A stretch of 64,000 nucleotides of DNA, taken from contig JAHEDW010000132.1 of the NCBI GenBank assembly GCA_024641025.1, positions 1 through 64,000 of the forward strand, written 5' to 3'. The notes beneath the pieces are model-generated. The model ran no database searches. It had not been told where the DNA came from and saw only the letters and a program-made list of their open reading frames with translations. Position numbers and translations under genes: made by a program. Origin of the DNA: Gallionella sp. GTDB taxonomy: Bacteria; Pseudomonadota; Gammaproteobacteria; Burkholderiales; Gallionellaceae. Every line of letters starts with the position of its first letter. The first letter of the stretch is position 1. Positions 1,502 to 54,779 of the stretch are shown one piece after another.

Positions 1502-2578
1502 ATGCTGAATCGACAGATTGACCTTATATCGTTAGGTTGGAACAAGTGGTTCGAAGCGCAGGCCGACCTTTGCGCCAGCCACGAAAATACTTTCGCTCGG
1601 GTTGCTGCCGTTGATCGAGACCAGTTCTTGCTCATCAATCAGACCGGCCAATTCCGGGCAAAAATGTCTGGCCACTTTTTTTACCAACATGAACAGTCGC
1701 ACGAATTCCCCTGCGTAGGGGATTGGGTGTGCGTCACGAAGAATCCAACTGACGACTTCGCTCTGATTCGCTCTCTTTTGGATCGCAAGACTAGCCTGCG
1801 CCGTCGGTCGGTCGGAGACGGACATGGATACCAGATGATTGCGGCGAACGTTGATTACATCGTAATCGTTCAATCTTGCCACTACGATTTCAATCTGAAA
1901 CGTCTGGAACGTTACCTTGTCATGGTAACCGAGGGTGGTGCTGAGCCTTGGGTGCTGCTGACGAAGACGGATCTGGTTAAACCAGCCATCCTCGATTCCC
2001 AGTTGTCAGAGCTCCGTGCATCAGGAATTGCGGCACCGGTGTTCCCTTTGAGCAATATGACGCGAGAAGGCGTTGACGAGTTTATTAGGATGCTTCTTCC
2101 TGGAAAGACGTATTGCTTCGTCGGGTCATCCGGGGTCGGCAAGAGCACTCTCATCAATGGCTTGATTGGTAGAGACATGCTCGAGACTAATAACGTCAGT
2201 GGCACGGGCGAGGGACGGCATACGACGGTCCGTAGGGAACTCATCCTCCTTGAGGGTGGAGCGCTAGTTATCGACAACCCGGGGATGCGTGAGTTCGGAA
2301 TACTTGGCGCAGATAGCGGACTCGGCGGAAGCTTTTCCGATATCACTTCTCTCGCTGCTGCTTGTCGATACAGGAATTGCAGTCATACCAACGAACCTGG
2401 CTGTGCTGTAATCAAGGCACTTGAGGCTGGTGAAATTGGGGTAGAGCACTATGACAATTACTTCAAGCTCAGCGAAGAGTCCGCGTTCAGCCAAATGTCC
2501 TACGCTGAGAAGAGAAAGAAAGATCGCGATTTTGGTAAATACATAAAGTTAGCGAAAAAGGACCTGAAACATGACTAG
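1502..2578 (+). CDS. rsgA: RsgA-like ribosome small-subunit-dependent GTPase
   Basis: Circularly permuted GTPase of the YjeQ/RsgA family, which checks late 30S maturation in the cytoplasm. An OB-fold-like N-terminal region is followed by G4 (TKTD, about 154), G1 (GSSGVGKST, about 208) and G3 (DNPG, about 258), then a zinc-binding C-x4-C-x-H-x5-C set (C288, C293, H295, C301) and a lysine-rich tail. The track ORF begins at 1088, but that extension lies inside the IS110 region; the ATG at 1502 has GGAG five bases upstream and gives 358 residues, normal for the longer RsgA subtype. It sits between the broken IS and the tRNA fragment, so it may be a second, island-borne copy. Whether another rsgA exists cannot be seen here. 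G4 reads TKTD rather than NKxD. Confidence 0.93.
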   Translation: MLNRQIDLISLGWNKWFEAQADLCASHENTFARVAAVDRDQFLLINQTGQFRAKMSGHFFYQHEQSHEFPCVGDWVCVTKNPTDDFALIRSLLDRKTSLRRRSVGDGHGYQMIAANVDYIVIVQSCHYDFNLKRLERYLVMVTEGGAEPWVLLTKTDLVKPAILDSQLSELRASGIAAPVFPLSNMTREGVDEFIRMLLPGKTYCFVGSSGVGKSTLINGLIGRDMLETNNVSGTGEGRHTTVRRELILLEGGALVIDNPGMREFGILGADSGLGGSFSDITSLAAACRYRNCSHTNEPGCAVIKALEAGEIGVEHYDNYFKLSEESAFSQMSYAEKRKKDRDFGKYIKLAKKDLKHD

Positions 2579-2871
2579 GTGTGCGCGGCGAATTGACTTG
2601 AAGGTCCGCTTTCTCTGAGTGGCTACTTCCGCTTAGGGCAAAAAGCGGAAGTTAGGGTTGGTGTAGGGTAGGTCCGCTCCCCAGCGTAAAGCCGACATAC
2701 AATTGATCAGCCGTTAATTTCGGCATAGGCGGAGAAGCCGACGCTTTGAAGGGACTTTGAAGGAACTGAATTGTAAAAAGCACTATAAGACAGTCGTTGA
2801 AGGGGATGTGGGATTGGTTAATAAATCATTTAAAACATAGTGTTGTATACAAACAATCAAATCGACATCCA
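2579..2871. other. Non-coding stretch with a 10-bp hairpin
   Basis: No convincing gene. It contains a perfect 10-bp hairpin (ACTTCCGCTT at 2626-2635 with AAGCGGAAGT at 2644-2653) lacking a T run, a repeated AGGTCCGCT-like word, and a short tandem (CTTTGAAGGGA then CTTTGAAGGA) near 2740-2765. It probably belongs to the island end. Confidence 0.5.
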
Positions 2872-2872
2872 A

Positions 2873-2906
2873 GGGGTCGTTGGTTCGAGTCCAATCGTGC
2901 CTTCCA
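2873..2906 (+). repeat. tRNA 3'-end fragment, probable island attachment site
   Basis: The 34 bases read as a complete T arm (stem GTTGG/CCAAT around TTCGAGT), the 3' acceptor strand CGTGCCT, a discriminator base and an encoded CCA. No D arm or anticodon arm precedes it. The sequence resembles the 3' end of betaproteobacterial tRNA-Val(GAC), from memory of the family. Integrases using tRNA genes leave such a copy at the far end of the inserted element. In this orientation the intact tRNA and the integrase should lie to the left, outside the window. Confidence 0.75.
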
Positions 2907-2913
2907 AAAATAC

Positions 2914-2953
2914 AATGGGTTAAATCAGAAACGGTCTAGCCCATTTTTCTTTT
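2914..2953 (+). terminator. Rho-independent terminator after the tRNA fragment
   Basis: AATGGGTTA (2914-2922) pairs with TAGCCCATT (2937-2945), followed by TTTTTCTTTT. It looks like the natural terminator of the tRNA gene whose 3' end was duplicated. Confidence 0.75.
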
Positions 2954-3323
2954 AAGGGACTCAAATATTTTGAGACAATCCCAACTATCGCAATGTGTCC
3001 GAATCAGTGCTTGGCAAACGATTTATTTCGGGTTATGAGGTCAGCGAGTTTTAGTTCCGATTGGTGCCAATAACAGACTTTGCGATCGGCAGCTTTGCGG
3101 TTGTGAATATTGGGAAGTAGGCAGTCGATTTGTCCCAGAAGTGGACAGCAGGAGTATTATTAATACCACGTTGGATATTTAACTATTTACTGTCTGCCCA
3201 GGCCAATGAACTAGTGCCAGTATTGCCGAAACATAGCAAGAATGGATTCTTTCATCTTGTGTTGATGATACTGATTCCGTATACATTGATTTTCTAGACG
3301 AAAAAGTGATTTAACCTGACTTC
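2954..3323. other. Intergenic stretch, no gene seen
   Basis: About 370 bases between the tRNA-fragment terminator and the PAS gene. I see no tRNA, conserved motif or ORF with a ribosome site. It probably contains the promoter of the downstream gene. Confidence 0.4.
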
Positions 3324-3917
3324 ATGTCCAATAATTATCAATCCTTAAAGACAAATCATTCTCAGTCAGCAAGATGGTTGCTAGCGATATTGACTGTCTC
3401 CGCATTTCTAATTGAACTACTGGTTCTGCTTCTTTCGGGCATATTGCCGGACATGCCAAAGATAGCCAGGTATCTATTGGACTCAATTATTTCGGCTACA
3501 TTACTTTTTCCAATATTCTACTTTATGGTTTTCCGCCCCATGTTGAAGAACATTACCAAGCTCAAGCAAGCAGAGGAAAATTTACGCATTATCTCTGTAG
3601 CTTTTGAGAGCAAAGATCCTATCCTGATTACGGATGCGAACTCAAATATCCTCCGAGCCAACAATATGTTTTTACGAATCACTGGCTATACTGCAGAAGA
3701 AATAGTCGGGAAAAACTCCCGCATCTTCAAATCGGAACGATATAACTCGGATTTACACAAAAACATGTGGGAAAAGTTGTTACACGCTGGTTCATGGCGA
3801 GGGGAAATTCGTATTAAGGGGAGTGATGGTCGTGAAGTTCCTGCAGGTGTTGTGATCACCGCAGTAAAAGATGAACGGCAAGAAACTACCCATTATGTGG
3901 CAATATACAATCTATAG
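3324..3917 (+). CDS. Membrane-anchored PAS sensor fragment
   Basis: Two membrane segments (about residues 18-42 and 52-70) lead into a PAS domain with PAC end: ITDANSNILRANN, then ITGYTAEEIVGKN, then GSWRGEIRIKGSDGR. Proteins with this arrangement normally continue after the PAC motif into further PAS, GGDEF, EAL or kinase domains. Here the reading frame stops directly after HYVAIYNL, so only the sensor remains, 197 residues. It is either a truncated diguanylate cyclase-type protein or a small stand-alone sensor. It is the first gene to the right of the tRNA fragment and has no clear operon partner. No strong ribosome site is visible before the ATG. Confidence 0.7.
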   Translation: MSNNYQSLKTNHSQSARWLLAILTVSAFLIELLVLLLSGILPDMPKIARYLLDSIISATLLFPIFYFMVFRPMLKNITKLKQAEENLRIISVAFESKDPILITDANSNILRANNMFLRITGYTAEEIVGKNSRIFKSERYNSDLHKNMWEKLLHAGSWRGEIRIKGSDGREVPAGVVITAVKDERQETTHYVAIYNL

Positions 3918-4120
3918 GCAGGACGAATTCTGATTTGAGGAAGCAAGATTAAGGGATGTCTGTAGATATGTATTGAGAGTTGCATACAGTGGTTCTGCTA
4001 TACGGCGATCTGAATCATGGAAAAGCGTGCGACGGCATTCAGGCCGAGTCTATGGCTTGACCTGATATGGCAGGCAATCACTTCGTGCAAAATCCGACTG
4101 TTATTGAGTAGGAAATAATT

Positions 4121-4939
4121 ATGGCTAGTCTGGAAGCACACTATTCGGCGCGCGACATTGAGGCTAGAATCATGTCTGCAATCCGCGCGGCCGGTTTGAA
4201 TCCCGAGCAACGCCTTTCCCCGGAGGAACTGGGGGGGCTTGACCATTTCCACACGGGCGGATTCCGAGCTTCACTCCAGTTGTTGGAACTAGCGAAAATC
4301 CTGGCCGAAGATCGCGTTCTCGATATTGGCGCTGGTCTTGCAGGAGCCGCCCGGATGCTAGCTTTCACAACAGGTTGCAGAGTCGATTGCATTGAATTGT
4401 CACCCGATTATTGCGCTGGGGCGATATTGCTGAATCGGTTGACCGGCCTTGATGAAAGAATCACAGTACATAATGGCAGCGCTTTCGACCTGACTTTTCC
4501 CGAAAATTCGTTTGATGCAGTATGGATGCAAAATGTAGGCATGAACATCTCCGACAAGCGGAAGCTCTATGAGGAGGTTTGTCGGGTCCTCAAGCCTGGC
4601 GGGCGGTTTGCTTTCCAAGAAATGACCTCCGGTGAGCAAGCGGCTTCGTTCCATTTTCCACTACCGTGGGCCACCGATCCTGGGGACAACTTCCTAATTT
4701 CTTCCGAGGAGATGCATTCGGTTCTTGTCGAGAGTGGATTCATCGCTGAATCCTTCGAGGATGCAAGCGACGAAATATTGAATGGACCTCATGTGAGTGT
4801 GACTCCCGAAGTCACCGCGCAGATTCAACTCGGCTTGTCGGTATTCGTCGATAATCTTGCGGAAAAAGCCGGGAATGCAAGGCGCAGTCTTCAGGAGCGT
4901 CAGATCCGCTTTGTAAGAGGTGTCTTCCGGGTGGAATGA
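4121..4939 (+). CDS. SAM-dependent methyltransferase
   Basis: Class I methyltransferase of 272 residues. Motif I is VLDIGAGLAGAARML (about 66-80), the acidic strand end is CIELSP, and a motif IV/post-I region includes NSFDAVWMQNVGMNI and LKPGGRFAFQE. The segment LGGLDHFHTGG before motif I resembles the DQFHTGG entry of sarcosine/dimethylglycine-type N-methyltransferases, but the substrate cannot be assigned. A taggaaa ribosome site precedes the ATG. The gene stands alone and is followed by a hairpin. Moderate GC contrasts with the AT-rich FkbM gene next to it. Confidence 0.85.
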   Translation: MASLEAHYSARDIEARIMSAIRAAGLNPEQRLSPEELGGLDHFHTGGFRASLQLLELAKILAEDRVLDIGAGLAGAARMLAFTTGCRVDCIELSPDYCAGAILLNRLTGLDERITVHNGSAFDLTFPENSFDAVWMQNVGMNISDKRKLYEEVCRVLKPGGRFAFQEMTSGEQAASFHFPLPWATDPGDNFLISSEEMHSVLVESGFIAESFEDASDEILNGPHVSVTPEVTAQIQLGLSVFVDNLAEKAGNARRSLQERQIRFVRGVFRVE

Positions 4940-44076: not shown

Positions 44077-44592
44077 ATGAAAATCTTTGCTTCGGTGTTA
44101 TTGTTCATGCTCTGCATTGGGACTGTGTTTGCTGAAACCCGTGATGCAGAGCAACACTTCTTTGATATGAAAATGGGAGACTTCAAGGAAGAGTTGGCTA
44201 CTGCCAAGAAAGATGGCAAAGCAGGTATTCTGATCATGTTCGAGCAGGAGGGTTGTCCCTTCTGTTTACGCATGAAAAACACGATCCTCAACCAGAGCGA
44301 AGTGCAAGACTACTTTCACAAGCACTTCCTGATTTTCCTACTCGATATTCGCGGCAGTATTCCTATGGTAGATTTCACTGGCAATGAAACTACCGAAAAA
44401 GCCTTTAGCGTAGAGCATCGTGTATACGGAACACCTGTATTTGATTTTTTTGATCTGGATGGAAATCTGGTTACACGCTTTCCAGGAACGGCTAAGAACG
44501 TAGATGAATTCATGTTGCTTGGTAAATGTGTCGTTGATGGCGCATGTAAAAGCACTTCATTTGCTGTGTACAAGAAAAATCTAGCGAAATGA
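44077..44592 (+). CDS. Periplasmic thioredoxin-like protein, SoxW-like
   Basis: 171 residues with a signal peptide (ends VFA). Thioredoxin fold with redox motif EGCPFCLRM and cis-Pro loop VYGTPVFDF. CPFC and the insert before the cis-Pro resemble SoxW, which supports the Sox or cytochrome maturation pathways. Overlaps the TolC gene by four bases, so it is cotranscribed with the efflux genes, which is unusual for SoxW. Confidence 0.85.
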   Translation: MKIFASVLLFMLCIGTVFAETRDAEQHFFDMKMGDFKEELATAKKDGKAGILIMFEQEGCPFCLRMKNTILNQSEVQDYFHKHFLIFLLDIRGSIPMVDFTGNETTEKAFSVEHRVYGTPVFDFFDLDGNLVTRFPGTAKNVDEFMLLGKCVVDGACKSTSFAVYKKNLAK

Positions 44593-45899
44593 GATGTGTT
44601 CTGCGCAAGCTATATTTGAAGCTTTTTTGCTGCTTGTTATACCTTTCAGCAACATCTGTTTCAGGGTATGCCAATCCGTTGACACTTGAGGCTGCCTTAG
44701 CTACAGCAGAATCTTCGCATCCTGATTTGATGCTGGCTCAGGCTGATCGAGAAAGAGCACTCGCAGACCAGGATATCGCAAATTCGCGTCAAGATGCCAG
44801 CATCAATTTTGAAGGGATATTGCGCAGTGGACACCCGACCTTTGGTGGTCCAGCCATTGCCAGCGACAATAGCGTTCGTCTTACAGCACGTAAAACACTC
44901 TATGATTTCGGGCGCAGCAGCAATGCCGAGCTTGCTGCTCAATATGAGTTGAATGCACGCGAAGCCGATCTTACCACCATGCTTAGCAGCCGACGGTTGG
45001 ACATCATGACTCGCTATTTCGACGTACTGCTGGCAGACATGAGGAACACCGTGGAGAGCGAATTGACATCGGTGTATTACACCAGTTACCAACAGGGGTT
45101 AGATCGATTTGAGCTAGGGCAGATATCCAGCATTGAACTGGCAGAGCTTGATACACGCTATCGGGACACTGTTGAAAAACGCAATGCCAGTGCCCAGAGT
45201 CAGCGCCTTACTCGAGCTTTACTGGCTAATGCCATGAATCGTCCTAACGATTTACCTCGTGAACTCCAAGACCCATTGCTTTCTGGCAATCAGCGTACAT
45301 TGCCTGATTATGAGACGCTGCTCCCCATTTTGTTGAGCAATAATTCTCGCCTTAACGCTCAACAGGATATGTTGTCAGCCTCGCAAAAGCGTATCGAATC
45401 GCTGCGTGCAGAAAATGGTCCCATTCTAGATGCCGAATTACAAGCCGCCGATTACAGTCGCATTGCCGCTACTAGAGATAACTTGAGTGCAGGCCTCATA
45501 TTGTCTTGGTCGTTGTACCAGGGCAAACGTTCGGATTCACGCGTTGCGCGTGAAGTGGCACAGTTCAATAAGCTGCAGGCAGGTACTGAAAAGCTGAAAT
45601 TGGAACTGACTCAGGCTTTGTTGGAGAGCTACCTGGAAATTACCCAGTTGCAGAGTGCTGCACGTAATGCTGCAAGTAAATTTGTTGATTATCGCGACCT
45701 GCTACTTGAGCGCAGTCGCGGACTCTATGAACTTGAACTCAAGAGTAATCTGGGTACCTCCATGGCAGGAACCGCAGAAGCTCATATGCGTTCTCGCCAA
45801 ATCGAATACCAACTTGCATTGAGCTTCGCGCGTTTGGAGGCATTGTTGGGAGTGCCTTTGGGTGAGCACGAAAAATATAAAGGGAATGGAAATGAATAA
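44589..45899 (+). CDS. TolC-family outer-membrane efflux protein
   Basis: 436 residues with a signal peptide and two OEP repeats (LTLEAALATAESSHPDLMLAQADRERALAD; VDYRDLLLERSRGLYELELKSNLGTSMAGTAEAH). Long coiled helices form the periplasmic tunnel. Overlaps the thioredoxin gene (ATGA) and the adaptor gene by eight bases. Confidence 0.92.
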   Translation: MRCVLRKLYLKLFCCLLYLSATSVSGYANPLTLEAALATAESSHPDLMLAQADRERALADQDIANSRQDASINFEGILRSGHPTFGGPAIASDNSVRLTARKTLYDFGRSSNAELAAQYELNAREADLTTMLSSRRLDIMTRYFDVLLADMRNTVESELTSVYYTSYQQGLDRFELGQISSIELAELDTRYRDTVEKRNASAQSQRLTRALLANAMNRPNDLPRELQDPLLSGNQRTLPDYETLLPILLSNNSRLNAQQDMLSASQKRIESLRAENGPILDAELQAADYSRIAATRDNLSAGLILSWSLYQGKRSDSRVAREVAQFNKLQAGTEKLKLELTQALLESYLEITQLQSAARNAASKFVDYRDLLLERSRGLYELELKSNLGTSMAGTAEAHMRSRQIEYQLALSFARLEALLGVPLGEHEKYKGNGNE

Positions 45900-46647
45900 A
45901 TGGATATTTTTCTGCTTTATAGCATTTGCAACACAAGCAGTTTGGGCTGCAGATATTCAGGCGACATTGGAATGGTCTCATAGAGTTGAGCTCTCTACCC
46001 CAGTATCAGGTGTAATAAAGTCAGTCAATGTTGAGGTCGGCGGCAAGGTAAAAAGGGGTGAGGTTTTGCTGTCATTGGACACTACTACTTTTCGTGCCAA
46101 AGTCGCCGAGAGTCAATCTGAATTAACCAGAATGGAAGCAGAATTGGCTGAAGCAGAAAAAGAGTTGGGTCGCGTGAAGGAACTGTACGAGCGGACCATT
46201 GTTTCAACAACTGACTTGGATCAGGCCAAGCTAAGGCTAGCAATAAGCCAATCCACGCTTTCCGAGGCGAAAGCTCGTTTGTTACAGAATCAGAAAATTC
46301 TGGCGGACGCCTCTTTACGTGCACCTTTTGATGCTGTTGTTGTTCTTCGCCAGGCTGAGCCTGGTCAAAGTGTTGCGGTCGGCTTGCAACCACAGATGCT
46401 GCTGACACTTGCAAAATCAGGTGAAATGATTGCGCGAATGCATCTTTCATTATCCCAGCTTGAAAAGTTGACAAAAGGCCAGAAGGTGGCATTGACGGCT
46501 GCTGGAGCAAGTTATACAGGGAATATCAAAACTCTAGGCCTAGAGCCAATCAAGATCAATGACGCATTTGCCTATCCTGTCGATGTGCTTTTCACAAGCA
46601 CGTCGCCTTTGCGCGCCGGCGTTCCAGCTCAGGTGACGCTGCCATGA
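45892..46647 (+). CDS. HlyD/RND-type periplasmic adaptor
   Basis: 251 residues from the ATG at 45892 (AGGG seven bases upstream), signal peptide ending VWAAD. The lipoyl-like half (SGVIKSVNVEVGGKVKRGEVLLSLD) is followed by a coiled-coil hairpin (ELTRMEAELAEAEKELGRVKELYERTI...), the second lipoyl half (LRAPFDAVVVLRQAEPGQSV) and a beta-barrel. It is shorter than typical RND adaptors, lacking the membrane-proximal domain. No inner-membrane pump gene follows. Confidence 0.9.
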   Translation: MNKWIFFCFIAFATQAVWAADIQATLEWSHRVELSTPVSGVIKSVNVEVGGKVKRGEVLLSLDTTTFRAKVAESQSELTRMEAELAEAEKELGRVKELYERTIVSTTDLDQAKLRLAISQSTLSEAKARLLQNQKILADASLRAPFDAVVVLRQAEPGQSVAVGLQPQMLLTLAKSGEMIARMHLSLSQLEKLTKGQKVALTAAGASYTGNIKTLGLEPIKINDAFAYPVDVLFTSTSPLRAGVPAQVTLP

Positions 46648-47247
46648 AGGTTGTTACATGACAGTTTATTCGTCCAATGTTGAATTGATGTGAGCGGCAA
46701 TACCAAATGAGCGTGACAAAATCTCCCTGTATTTCAAACCCATCAATTGAACCTATACAAACTAGCTAGCGATAGATTATCGAATTGCCACGTATTATTA
46801 AGATCGATGAGTATGGCCTCCCGAGTAAAAATTGATGTTGATCGTAATTTTTGCCGCTTGAAATCCTAAAGTTAGCAAAAGATTTTGGTAAATGAAATAC
46901 ATCTTACTGGCAAAATCAAGAGCCACAATTTTCCCTTGAAAATAACTTCCAACGTAGAGATCAGGGTGTTAGAGAATTCACCGATCACTGCTTTATTGAT
47001 TTCGTTCTGATTTATATCAGATGACGACTAGACTTCATTTGTGTCAGAAGACATACTAGGCTCAGTTGAAATGGTACAGGGATGTAACTGACAGCGAAGC
47101 TGCTTGATTTTGGCTTAATACTTTTGTCCGCACCGATTTCAAGATTCGCTGTAATGAGACCTGATTAGCAGTAATATTCTTCAAGTATTAGTTAGTTAAC
47201 CCGATTTGGTAAGTTCATCTACCAGATGCGCCTCATGGAGATAGCGG
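46648..47247. other. Gap after the adaptor gene, probably a lost pump gene
   Basis: An ATG (46644-46646) overlaps the adaptor stop as ATGA and starts MKVVT before a stop, as if a following gene had begun there. The rest (about 600 AT-rich bases) shows no long ORF. It should also contain the promoter of the MscS-like operon. Confidence 0.45.
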
Positions 47248-48087
47248 ATGGAAATATTCACGCGATGGAGTGACGCGCTAGCTGGCGTTCTTAACCAGAC
47301 AGTTGAGCGGCTTGCGCTCTATCTGCCGAACGTTCTCGGCGCATTCCTTTTGTTGCTGGTGGGTTGGCTCATTGCACATGTATTGCGTGCGACCGCAGTA
47401 CGTTTAACACTGCTAGGCGAGCGGGCGTTGGCTCGTATTTCAACCGGCCGCGGCGCATTGGCAGTTCACATACCGAGTGCTTCCGCGAAAATTTTTGGAA
47501 GCGTGGTTTTTTGGGTTGTGGTGTTGTTCTTTCTAACTGCGGCAACTCAAGTCTTGGGACTGAATACCTTTACAGCATGGCTTTCCCGCGTAGTCGACTA
47601 TCTGCCGACAGTTTTTGTCGGCGCACTCATCATCATTGCTGGATTTTTGGTAAGCAGGTTGGCACGCGAGGTGGTGGAGGCTGCAGCTGCGAGTGCTGGT
47701 GAACGCCAGCGAGCATTGATTGGTCGTGTGGTGCAGGCAGGAATCCTCATTACAGCCATCCTCGTCGGGGCAGAGCAGGTCGGCATCAAGGTGACCTTCC
47801 TTGTCATTTTAGCTGCTGTAGCTGGAATATCTCTCGTAGGAGCCGTTGCTCTTGCGCTCAGTATCGGTGCGCGTGAGTATGTTGCCAACCTGATCGGAGC
47901 GCACTACTTGCGTCAGCGTTATAGCATCGGGCAACATGTTCGTGTTGCTGGGAACGAGGGGAGGATACTTGAACTGACCGAAACTGCGGTTGTGATCGAA
48001 ACTGCTGAAGGACGTGCGAGTATTCCAGCGAAGTCATTCAATGAGCAGACTATCGTTCTGTTAATGAACGGGAAGCGTGATGGCTAG
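47248..48087 (+). CDS. MscS-like channel (conserved TM-helix family)
   Basis: 279 residues, four to five membrane helices (LPNVLGAFLLLLVGWLIAHVL; FGSVVFWVVVLFFLTAATQ; LPTVFVGALIIIAGFLVSRLAREVV; LVILAAVAGISLVGAVALALSIG), then a small beta domain (YSIGQHVRVAGNEGRILELTETAVVIETAEGRASIPAKSF) like the MscS middle domain. It lacks the large C-terminal cage. Cotranscribed with the two MgtE-type genes. Confidence 0.88.
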   Translation: MEIFTRWSDALAGVLNQTVERLALYLPNVLGAFLLLLVGWLIAHVLRATAVRLTLLGERALARISTGRGALAVHIPSASAKIFGSVVFWVVVLFFLTAATQVLGLNTFTAWLSRVVDYLPTVFVGALIIIAGFLVSRLAREVVEAAAASAGERQRALIGRVVQAGILITAILVGAEQVGIKVTFLVILAAVAGISLVGAVALALSIGAREYVANLIGAHYLRQRYSIGQHVRVAGNEGRILELTETAVVIETAEGRASIPAKSFNEQTIVLLMNGKRDG

Positions 48088-48922
48088 CACCGAAGCACTT
48101 AGCTACGCATTTCTGGAGGCACATCCGGCAGATGCGGCGAGGGTTCTTGAACGTCTCGCTGCCACTGAGGCAGGTGCGCTATTGAAGTCTGTACCGGTAC
48201 GACTCGCATCCCCCGTTCTGCGCCAGATGCTTCCATTCGCTGGTGCGCGCTGCCTCGAGCAATTAGATGATGTCGAGATAGCTGGACTTTTGCGTGGTAC
48301 CGGTGCGCAATCTGGGGTCGCGCTGATCCGTTACTTTGGTGCCGAACGCAGGGCACTATTACTGGCACAGTTGCCGACCACACTTACCCTCGCTTACGAG
48401 TTACTGCTCGGCTATCCGGAAGACACCGTCGGTGCCTGGATGGATCCGCGCGCGCTTGCATTGCCAGCCGATATGACGGTAGGCGAATCTCTTGAACGTG
48501 TTCGCCGAACTGACGAGGCGATGATTGCAGACCCCTTTGTTATCGACCGCAACCAGTGTCTGCTCGGCTATGTCGAGCTTGCTGACTTGTTACGCGCAAA
48601 TCCTAGGAGTTCTTTGGGAAGACAGGTCAGGCCATGCAGGCATCGGCTGCCAGCACAGTCTCCTCTTAATGGGCTAACTGATCATCAGGGTTGGCTCTCT
48701 GCTTCGACTCTGCCTGTCGTCGAGCATGACGACAGGTTCGTTGGCGCATTTACACACGCTGCGTTATTGAGGGCGCTTTCACTAGAACGGTCTACCCTGA
48801 CATCGGACAAATCTGAGGACACGCTCGTAAGTATCACAAGTGCCTATTGGCTAAGTGTATCTGCCTTGATCCAGGCACTGGTTGGAATGCTTCCGGTAAA
48901 ACGACACGAGGGCGAATCATGA
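48080..48922 (+). CDS. MgtE-N/CBS protein without transport domain
   Basis: 280 residues from the ATG at 48080, overlapping the channel gene. It has an MgtE_N-like helical superdomain (HPADAARVLERLAATEAGALLKSVPVRLASPVLRQML) and CBS-type segments (DTVGAWMDPRALALPADMTVGESLERVRRTDEAM; LPVVEHDDRFVGAF) but no membrane helices of the MgtE channel. Its stop overlaps the next start (ATGA). It may regulate the MgtE or the channel encoded beside it. Confidence 0.83.
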   Translation: MASTEALSYAFLEAHPADAARVLERLAATEAGALLKSVPVRLASPVLRQMLPFAGARCLEQLDDVEIAGLLRGTGAQSGVALIRYFGAERRALLLAQLPTTLTLAYELLLGYPEDTVGAWMDPRALALPADMTVGESLERVRRTDEAMIADPFVIDRNQCLLGYVELADLLRANPRSSLGRQVRPCRHRLPAQSPLNGLTDHQGWLSASTLPVVEHDDRFVGAFTHAALLRALSLERSTLTSDKSEDTLVSITSAYWLSVSALIQALVGMLPVKRHEGES

Positions 48923-50226
48923 ACACCGATGCCCAAGCGGCAGTCTCTGCCCTCAATTTGCGCTTTATGCTCGACTATCCGCGCGAGGCTGCACAGCGCA
49001 TCGAAGCGATGCTGCCACATGAAGCGAGTGTATTGCTTGCGATGCAACCGTTACAGGCTATGGTGCCGGTATGGCTCAGTCTTGCCACCGATGTGGAGCA
49101 GGCCGTGTTCACCCTATTGCCCGAACAGCGCGCCGCAGAGCTTCTTGCCGAGTTGGAGCCGTCGCGAAGCGCAGCGCTGCTTAATCGACTCGATGAGGCT
49201 GAACGAGAGCATTACAAGGGGATGCTGAGTACGCAAGTCGCAGCAGAAATTCGCACATTGATGGAGTATCTGCCCGACTCTGCCGGCCAGTTGATGGATC
49301 CTCGCGTACTAGCATTCCGGGGCGAGTTGACTGTACACGAAGCCTTGGTTCGGTTGCGCCAGACACAACGGAGAGGACTGCGTGAGTTGTATCTGGTTGA
49401 TGATGATGGTCGCCTAGAAGGCCGTGTTGACATCCAAGATCTGGCACTCGCTGACCCAGATGAGATGCTTACGCGAATCGCGCATAGGATTACGGACGCT
49501 GTAAAGGATACTGATCCCCGCGAAGATGTGGTGGAAAAAATGCAACAGGACACGACATCCGACCTGCCAGTGGTCGACTTCGATGGTCGACTGGTTGGTT
49601 TCATCCGCCAATCTAAGTTTGCAAATGCAGTGCAGCAAGAGACTACGCTGGATATTCAGACTATGGTTGGCGCGAGCCGTGATGAACGCGCTCTTTCGTC
49701 TGCTACTTTTTCGGTGGCTAAGCGGCTGCCCTGGTTGCAGATTAATCTCCTTACCGCCTTTCTCGCAGCGTCCGTTGTTGGTCTGTTCGAAGGTACGATT
49801 GCCAAGTACACCGCACTTGCGGTGCTGCTTCCTGTAGTCGCTGGCCAGTCTGGGAATGCAGGCGCACAGGCACTTGCAGTGACGATGCGTGGACTTGTGT
49901 TACGAGAAATCAGCTTGCGCCATTGGCCGAAAGTCGTATTCAAGGAAGTTAATGTCGGGTTGATGAATGGACTCGCGGTAGCCGCAACTACTGCAATTGG
50001 TGTGTTCATCTGGAGCCGGTCTATTGGGTTGGTGATGGTGATTGCTGCCGCAATGGTTATTTCAATGGTTGCCGCGGGTTTTGCGGGAGCGCTCGTTCCG
50101 ATATTGCTGCAGCGATTTGGCCAGGACCCTGCACAGTCTTCCTCAATCATTCTGACCACAGTCACTGATGTCGTCGGATTCTTTTCCTTTTTGGGTATTG
50201 CGACACTTTTTTCTTCAATGCTCTGA
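48919..50226 (+). CDS. mgtE: MgtE-type magnesium transporter
   Basis: 435 residues from the ATG at 48919. MgtE_N domain (EAAQRIEAMLPHEASVLLAMQPL), two CBS motifs (AGQLMDPRVLAFRGELTVHEALVRLRQ; VVEKMQQDTTSDLPVVDFDGRLVGFI), then five membrane helices with the signature PVVAGQSGNAGAQALAVTMRGL that lines the Mg2+ pore. CBS domains close the pore at high Mg2+. The track start at 48847 is inside the previous gene. Confidence 0.96.
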   Translation: MNTDAQAAVSALNLRFMLDYPREAAQRIEAMLPHEASVLLAMQPLQAMVPVWLSLATDVEQAVFTLLPEQRAAELLAELEPSRSAALLNRLDEAEREHYKGMLSTQVAAEIRTLMEYLPDSAGQLMDPRVLAFRGELTVHEALVRLRQTQRRGLRELYLVDDDGRLEGRVDIQDLALADPDEMLTRIAHRITDAVKDTDPREDVVEKMQQDTTSDLPVVDFDGRLVGFIRQSKFANAVQQETTLDIQTMVGASRDERALSSATFSVAKRLPWLQINLLTAFLAASVVGLFEGTIAKYTALAVLLPVVAGQSGNAGAQALAVTMRGLVLREISLRHWPKVVFKEVNVGLMNGLAVAATTAIGVFIWSRSIGLVMVIAAAMVISMVAAGFAGALVPILLQRFGQDPAQSSSIILTTVTDVVGFFSFLGIATLFSSML

Positions 50227-50410
50227 TTCGCTTTACGCAAATCAACTTAGATTATAAGAAAACTGAATGTCTCCTTTCAGGAATTCAATAGATAAACGCC
50301 TTTGTTGTTGTAAGCGAAGAACAGTCATTGGCTCCAGAACGTATTATCATCCATATTTGGTAAGCAAAATGCATGATTAGGTAGAAGGCCATTATTGGAC
50401 AAAACAAAGC

Positions 50411-54419: not shown

Positions 54420-54779
54420 TCAAGCTGTCTTCGGCTTTGGCACTACTTTTTTGTTAGCAGGTTTAGCTGCATTTTTGCCAGTATTTTTTACATTCTTAGT
54501 AGAGGTAGCCACTTTTTTGGAAGTGGTGACAACGTTGCTGGCGGCCTTACTTATCTTCTTCTTGGCAGTTGCAATCGCTTTTTTAGCGGATTTTTCAACT
54601 TTCTTTTCAGTTGCGGATACTCCTTTGGCGGCCTTACTTATCTTCTTCTTGGCAGTTGCAATCGCTTTTTTAGCGGATTTTTCAACTTTTTTTTCAGTGG
54701 AGGACACTCCTTTGGCGGTCTTACTTATTTTGCGTCCGGCATTTTTTACGCTACCCTTGATACTTTTCAATGTTCCCAT
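54420..54779 (-). CDS. Histone H1-like Lys/Ala-rich protein
   Basis: 119 residues, about a third Lys, with 29-residue repeats (ISKAAKGVSATEKKVEKSAKKAIATAKKK). It resembles the C-terminal tails of histone H1 and bacterial H1-like proteins, so it probably binds DNA or polyanions. A strong AAGGGGGAAATC ribosome site. The large plus-strand ORFs here are mirror images of the repeat. Confidence 0.85.
   Translation of the reverse strand: MGTLKSIKGSVKNAGRKISKTAKGVSSTEKKVEKSAKKAIATAKKKISKAAKGVSATEKKVEKSAKKAIATAKKKISKAASNVVTTSKKVATSTKNVKNTGKNAAKPANKKVVPKPKTA
54544..54717. repeat. Two 87-bp tandem repeats in the H1-like gene
   Basis: Copies 54544-54630 and 54631-54717 differ by a few bases. A third partial copy lies to the right. 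Repeat number can change in frame. Confidence 0.92.

Follow-up and report, generated by a model that had tools for sequence, protein, structure and literature searches.

MgtE is the textbook example of a channel that senses the very ion it carries. The Thermus thermophilus protein (PDB 2YVX/2ZY9) has the domain series PF03448-CBS-PF01769, and its closure requires every site from Mg2 through Mg7 (PMC5882242). The pore and the cytosolic N-CBS module are separable in evolution, as illustrated by SLC41, an MgtE pore without CBS domains (PMC9276622). A cytosolic CBS pair is also present in OpuA-type transporters, which respond to the osmotic state and are unrelated to MgtE; as cited in PMC8104411, ionic strength controls the gating of OpuA. 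In the MscS family, E. coli MscS and Arabidopsis MSL1 (PF05552/PF00924) have a kinked last transmembrane helix, a beta domain and a C-terminal alpha/beta cage.

Here we describe a locus from Gallionella sp. in which consecutive genes encode an MscS-like channel, a pore-less MgtE paralog and a full MgtE (hereafter, the trio). The trio MgtE shares the N-CBS-plug-pore order of the Thermus protein together with its D432 and D418, but the trio has an extra gene for a putative pore-less subunit and an obligate MscS-like partner gene, and most of the cytosolic Mg2+-site and ATP-pocket residues are lost. Whereas SLC41 drops the cytosolic module, the trio paralog drops the pore and stays beside an intact MgtE. 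A search of the open-access literature for MgtE combined with MscS, for an operon link and for a pore-less or heterodimeric MgtE found no description of this unit.

Arrangement and conservation of the trio

The trio lies in a 64,000-nt stretch of Gallionella DNA, referred to as the window. The initial annotation described three overlapping genes, and its coordinates hold: all three are on the plus strand and overlap by 8 and 4 nt (Table 1). The ATG assigned to the paralog at 48080 is consistent with the conserved M-A-S/G-T-E start in an alignment of its relatives. Promoter and terminator signals in a scan at the trio were at chance level. Judged by eye, an upstream pair at 44589-46647 encodes a TolC-like outer-membrane protein and an HlyD/MFP-like protein, and a 119-aa Lys/Ala-rich repeat protein encoded downstream on the minus strand (54420-54779) resembles histone H1-like proteins.

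Table 1. Genes and gene overlaps of the trio in the window
Feature	Position	Strand	Start	Size	Basis
MscS-like channel gene	47248..48087	+	ATG 47248	279 aa	ORF, Pfam
Pore-less MgtE paralog ("sensor")	48080..48922	+	ATG 48080	280 aa	Pfam, tree, AF2
Full MgtE, trio clade	48919..50226	+	ATG 48919	435 aa	Pfam, clade profile, residues
Channel/paralog gene overlap	48080..48087	+		8 nt	Read from sequence
Paralog/MgtE gene overlap	48919..48922	+		4 nt, ATGA	Read from sequence

We gathered relatives of the paralog from named genomes and from samples of the order, class and phylum, with depth confined to Pseudomonadota; as the search profiles derive from known trio sequences, very divergent paralogs may have been missed. 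This yielded 47 loci with the paralog and MgtE genes on one contig, so the trio is not limited to one genome, a check that the initial annotation had called for. The order is channel, paralog, MgtE, with the paralog directly before an MgtE of one distinct clade. Most genes start before the previous one stops (channel/paralog, 36/46; paralog/MgtE, 38/47), and the overlaps of the window are also the commonest spacings, 8 nt in 20 of 46 trios at the first junction and 4 nt in 15 of 47 at the second.

The clade is sharply delimited. Across 369 Gammaproteobacteria genomes, its members score at least 528 bits with a profile of trio MgtEs and any other full MgtE at most 343; the window protein scores 691.6. 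Trio-clade MgtE genes occur in 28 of these genomes (27 intact, one broken), and the same 28 harbor the paralog, 27 of them in full and one cut by a contig end (in G564, the 3' part of the gene was found there). The co-occurrence of paralog and trio MgtE is extreme (Fisher p 4e-40; counts 27/0/1/341, predating the contig-end case). The channel gene is linked in 27 of the 28 genomes; in the remaining one the contig ends before it. One trio (G583) is split across two contig ends, and in another (G729) the channel gene lies ~2 kb upstream of the paralog gene with an inserted gene between them. That insert (2331-4172 of locus L140) is a histone-deacetylase-domain gene. In L146 (G675), the paralog is intact and the channel and MgtE genes are apparently frameshifted, through assembly error or decay. 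Outside Gammaproteobacteria, the trio was found in four more genomes of the phylum. Cultured carriers include Saccharospirillum salsuginis KCTC 22169 (L009) and Pseudoalteromonas sp. NC201 (L158). Co-occurrence across genomes rules out a chance neighborhood and supports a functional unit conserved across many Proteobacteria.

Features of the three proteins

As the initial annotation had it, the middle protein combines an MgtE_N domain (44.4 bits in Pfam) with two CBS stretches and has no PF01769 pore domain; a pore match is likewise absent from all 47 paralogs. In addition, a conserved hydrophobic or amphipathic helix with the pattern L-x3-Y/F-W/F-x5-L follows CBS2 at the C-terminus. The AF2 model (pLDDT 88.9) is confident in the N domain and the CBS pair, with the tail helix (residues 247-270) at pLDDT 70-76, and the solved folds nearest to it in Foldseek are MgtE cytosolic domains (E 1e-14). 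A leftover MgtE TM1 is an unsupported explanation for the tail, which does not align to TM1 and is just moderately hydrophobic in many paralogs. A recent MgtE pseudogene is ruled out by the age of the clade and its conserved positions. A Trp at the equivalent of T. thermophilus MgtE (TtMgtE) residue 224 is present in 46 of 47 paralogs and absent from MgtEs; it lies three residues before F227, near the ATP adenine pocket.

The third protein has the MgtE architecture of MgtE_N domain (39.2 bits), CBS pair (52.2 bits), plug and PF01769 pore (112.5 bits), and its best sequence match is Thermus MgtE. Its score against the NCBIfam equivalog TIGR00400 (227.3 bits) falls slightly under the cut-off of 232.75. 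In the plug of trio MgtEs, Met occupies the L263 position and D259 is kept. Two more MgtEs are encoded elsewhere in the same Gallionella genome, both of the ordinary type.

To compare the sensing residues, we aligned 44 trio MgtEs and 47 paralogs with 35 other MgtEs, the last group being a convenience sample, and took residue roles in TtMgtE from PMC5882242 (Mg2+ sites) and PMC5529423 (ATP pocket). The pore is intact: D432, the Mg1 aspartate, and D418 are present in 100% of the 44 trio MgtEs. The cytosolic sites are not. Over the seven cytosolic positions D91, D95, D226, D247, D250, E59 and E258, largely lost in both trio proteins, the mean number of acids is 0.48 in trio MgtEs and 0.91 in paralogs vs 5.2 in other MgtEs. 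D91 is acidic in 0% of trio MgtEs vs 100% of the others (2% vs 100% if a shift of one alignment column either way is allowed), D226 in 9% vs 89%, D247 in 7% vs 80% and D250 in 20% vs 91%; taken together, sites Mg4-Mg7 (D91/D247, D226/D250, D95, E59) are 0-20% acidic in trio MgtEs vs 49-100% in the others. Basic residues have moved in, with Arg or Lys at D226 in 50% of trio MgtEs and at D250 in 47% of paralogs, and the N-CBS module is far less acidic than in other MgtEs (net charge -8.6 in trio MgtEs and -0.6 in paralogs vs -26). On the plug side, the acids E216, E255 and D259 persist in 91-95% of trio MgtEs, and some divalent control near the pore may have survived with them.

Of the ATP-pocket residues Y170, R187, D188, N203 and F227, most are replaced and D188 alone is often kept (D in 52%), although this comparison discriminates weakly, since F227 is Leu or Ile in the sampled other MgtEs too. 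The initial annotation had viewed the paralog as a detached magnesium sensor and had made this view depend on its CBS nucleotide-binding residues. Neither part survives well: the acids of the cytosolic Mg2+ sites are nearly all gone from the paralog and from its partner MgtE, and the paralog mostly lacks the residues that form the ATP pocket of TtMgtE. Because closure of TtMgtE needs all sites from Mg2 to Mg7, the known closing mechanism should fail in the trio MgtE, and its gate should not be closed by Mg2+ in the known way. Judged by its sequence, this protein has the pore and the architecture of an MgtE without the Mg2+-gating features, and is probably switched by an input other than Mg2+.

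The channel protein matches PF05552 (48.2 bits) and PF00924 (21.4 bits; cut-off 20.2) above the cut-offs, and its profile matches MSL1 and MscS chains. The AF2 model (pLDDT 87.9) comprises five transmembrane helices and an MscS beta domain; the last transmembrane helix is kinked, resembling TM3 of MscS. The beta domain stops near residue 270, leaving ~10 residues to the C-terminus. MscS is the nearest solved fold (Foldseek E 5.7e-8), with a TM-score of just 0.27 that reflects a partial fold overlap, as the two diverge in the N-terminal helices and in the cage. Among 42 trio channels, PF05552 is found in 42 and PF00924 in 30, while no other or third MscS domain, the C-terminal alpha/beta cage included, was detected by Pfam in any; the model agrees for the window protein. 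By the beta domain and pore-helix region of its sequence and model, the window protein thus belongs to the MscS family, without the cage present in MscS and MSL1, and is a putative mechanosensitive-type channel.

Cage-less channel relatives of the same length occur without the paralog (G506, G591, G568), and the channel therefore does not depend on the paralog in general. The nearest relatives of trio channels that lack both paralog and MgtE (L141, L142, L143, L144, in these same genomes) adjoin a gene for a sigma-70-family sigma factor, recognized by Pfam for L141, L143 and L144 and by resemblance of the adjoining ORF for L142. This neighborhood is a second recurring setting of the cage-less MscS-like family.

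Origin of the trio and its possible arrival in Gallionella by transfer

In a quick tree of N-CBS modules, the paralogs form one clade (SH-aLRT 93) and the trio MgtEs another (92); the two are sisters and jointly separate from all other MgtEs with a support of 99. This sister relation points to a single tandem duplication before pore loss. The simplest history suggested by the tree is one ancient tandem mgtE duplication, loss of the pore from the upstream copy, and joint inheritance from then on. The distance matrices of the three trio proteins correlate (r 0.79-0.84), as joint inheritance would predict, and the correlation is compatible with proteins that make no contact.

In the window, the trio (47000-50300) has a GC content of 54.1% vs 46.8% in the rest, above every 3-kb stretch outside it. 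Three of 61 genus genomes carry the trio, and the DNA that the window shares with the other two starts and stops at the trio borders. The trio of the window genome may thus be a horizontal gain with sharp borders.

A candidate heteromeric gate and its alternatives

We favor a model in which the pore-less protein serves the trio MgtE as a regulatory subunit, the two forming a heteromer, and assign it a probability of about 0.5. Of the roles that the initial annotation had offered the paralog, mixed dimers with MgtE are the most plausible, because the paralog is a copy of the N-CBS module of MgtE and occurs in no genome that lacks the trio MgtE. In this model, the upstream mgtE copy would have become, after loss of its pore, a small regulatory subunit made of the N domain, the CBS pair and the C-terminal helix. 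The downstream copy retained the Mg2+ pore, and both shed nearly all cytosolic Mg2+-closing acids and most ATP-pocket residues. The subunit would pair with the N-CBS-plug module of MgtE by the usual CBS-dimer mode and thereby set the gate. At the former Mg2+ sites, basic residues could replace the Mg2+ bridges with direct salt bridges to the acids that the plug has kept. We speculate that a gate of this kind would respond to ionic strength, in keeping with an MscS-like partner.

The best candidates for the gate input are cytosolic ionic strength and membrane state, the former by analogy with OpuA, from which an ionic-strength role is extrapolated to the trio. If the co-translated MscS-like channel had this input in common, solute and ion release and Mg2+ permeation would be set jointly after an osmotic change. 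The complete relay, a rewired heteromeric Mg2+ channel that senses osmotic state (ionic strength or tension) via its pore-less subunit and is locked, physically or functionally, to a mechanosensitive-type channel, is a tentative and rather doubtful extension. Gene linkage alone makes it possible that osmotic and Mg2+ control are coupled or that the paralog gates the MscS-like channel, and both had been raised by the initial annotation. Linkage and co-inheritance would, however, also be expected from a shared pathway without contact.

Gating of the channel can be cast as a full alternative, in which the paralog regulates the channel by docking beneath it in place of the missing cage and MgtE is just an operon neighbor. 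The channel gene comes first and overlaps the paralog gene, so often by exactly 8 nt, the channel stops shortly past the beta domain, and the paralog tail is membrane-seeking. Nevertheless, we consider this unlikely, as cage-less channels of the same length do without the paralog, which is itself a duplicate of the trio MgtE and has never parted from it, even in G729, where an inserted gene splits channel and paralog. An operon of convenience is also improbable. In that case, three separate proteins of osmotic or ionic balance would have been co-transferred, with the paralog acting alone, for example on the membrane or another target; the GC contrast and the rarity of the trio in the genus do suggest package transfer, but obligate one-to-one presence and translational coupling conserved over deep divergence exceed what a package needs. 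Least credible, and in our estimate quite improbable, is that Mg2+ sensing persists, with a detached Mg2+/ATP sensor closing MgtE and tuning the channel. The N-CBS fold is conserved in the paralog and E216, E255 and D259 in the trio MgtE, yet the seven cytosolic acids and most ATP-site residues have gone from both proteins.

Annotating the trio genes as ordinary Mg2+-regulated transporters would be misleading. The trio offers a concrete and testable tie of osmotic stress to Mg2+ balance. A widespread clade that keeps the MgtE pore, apparently without its cargo sensor, and that always comes with a pore-less partner and an MscS-like channel is a natural experiment in the rewiring of MgtE gating.
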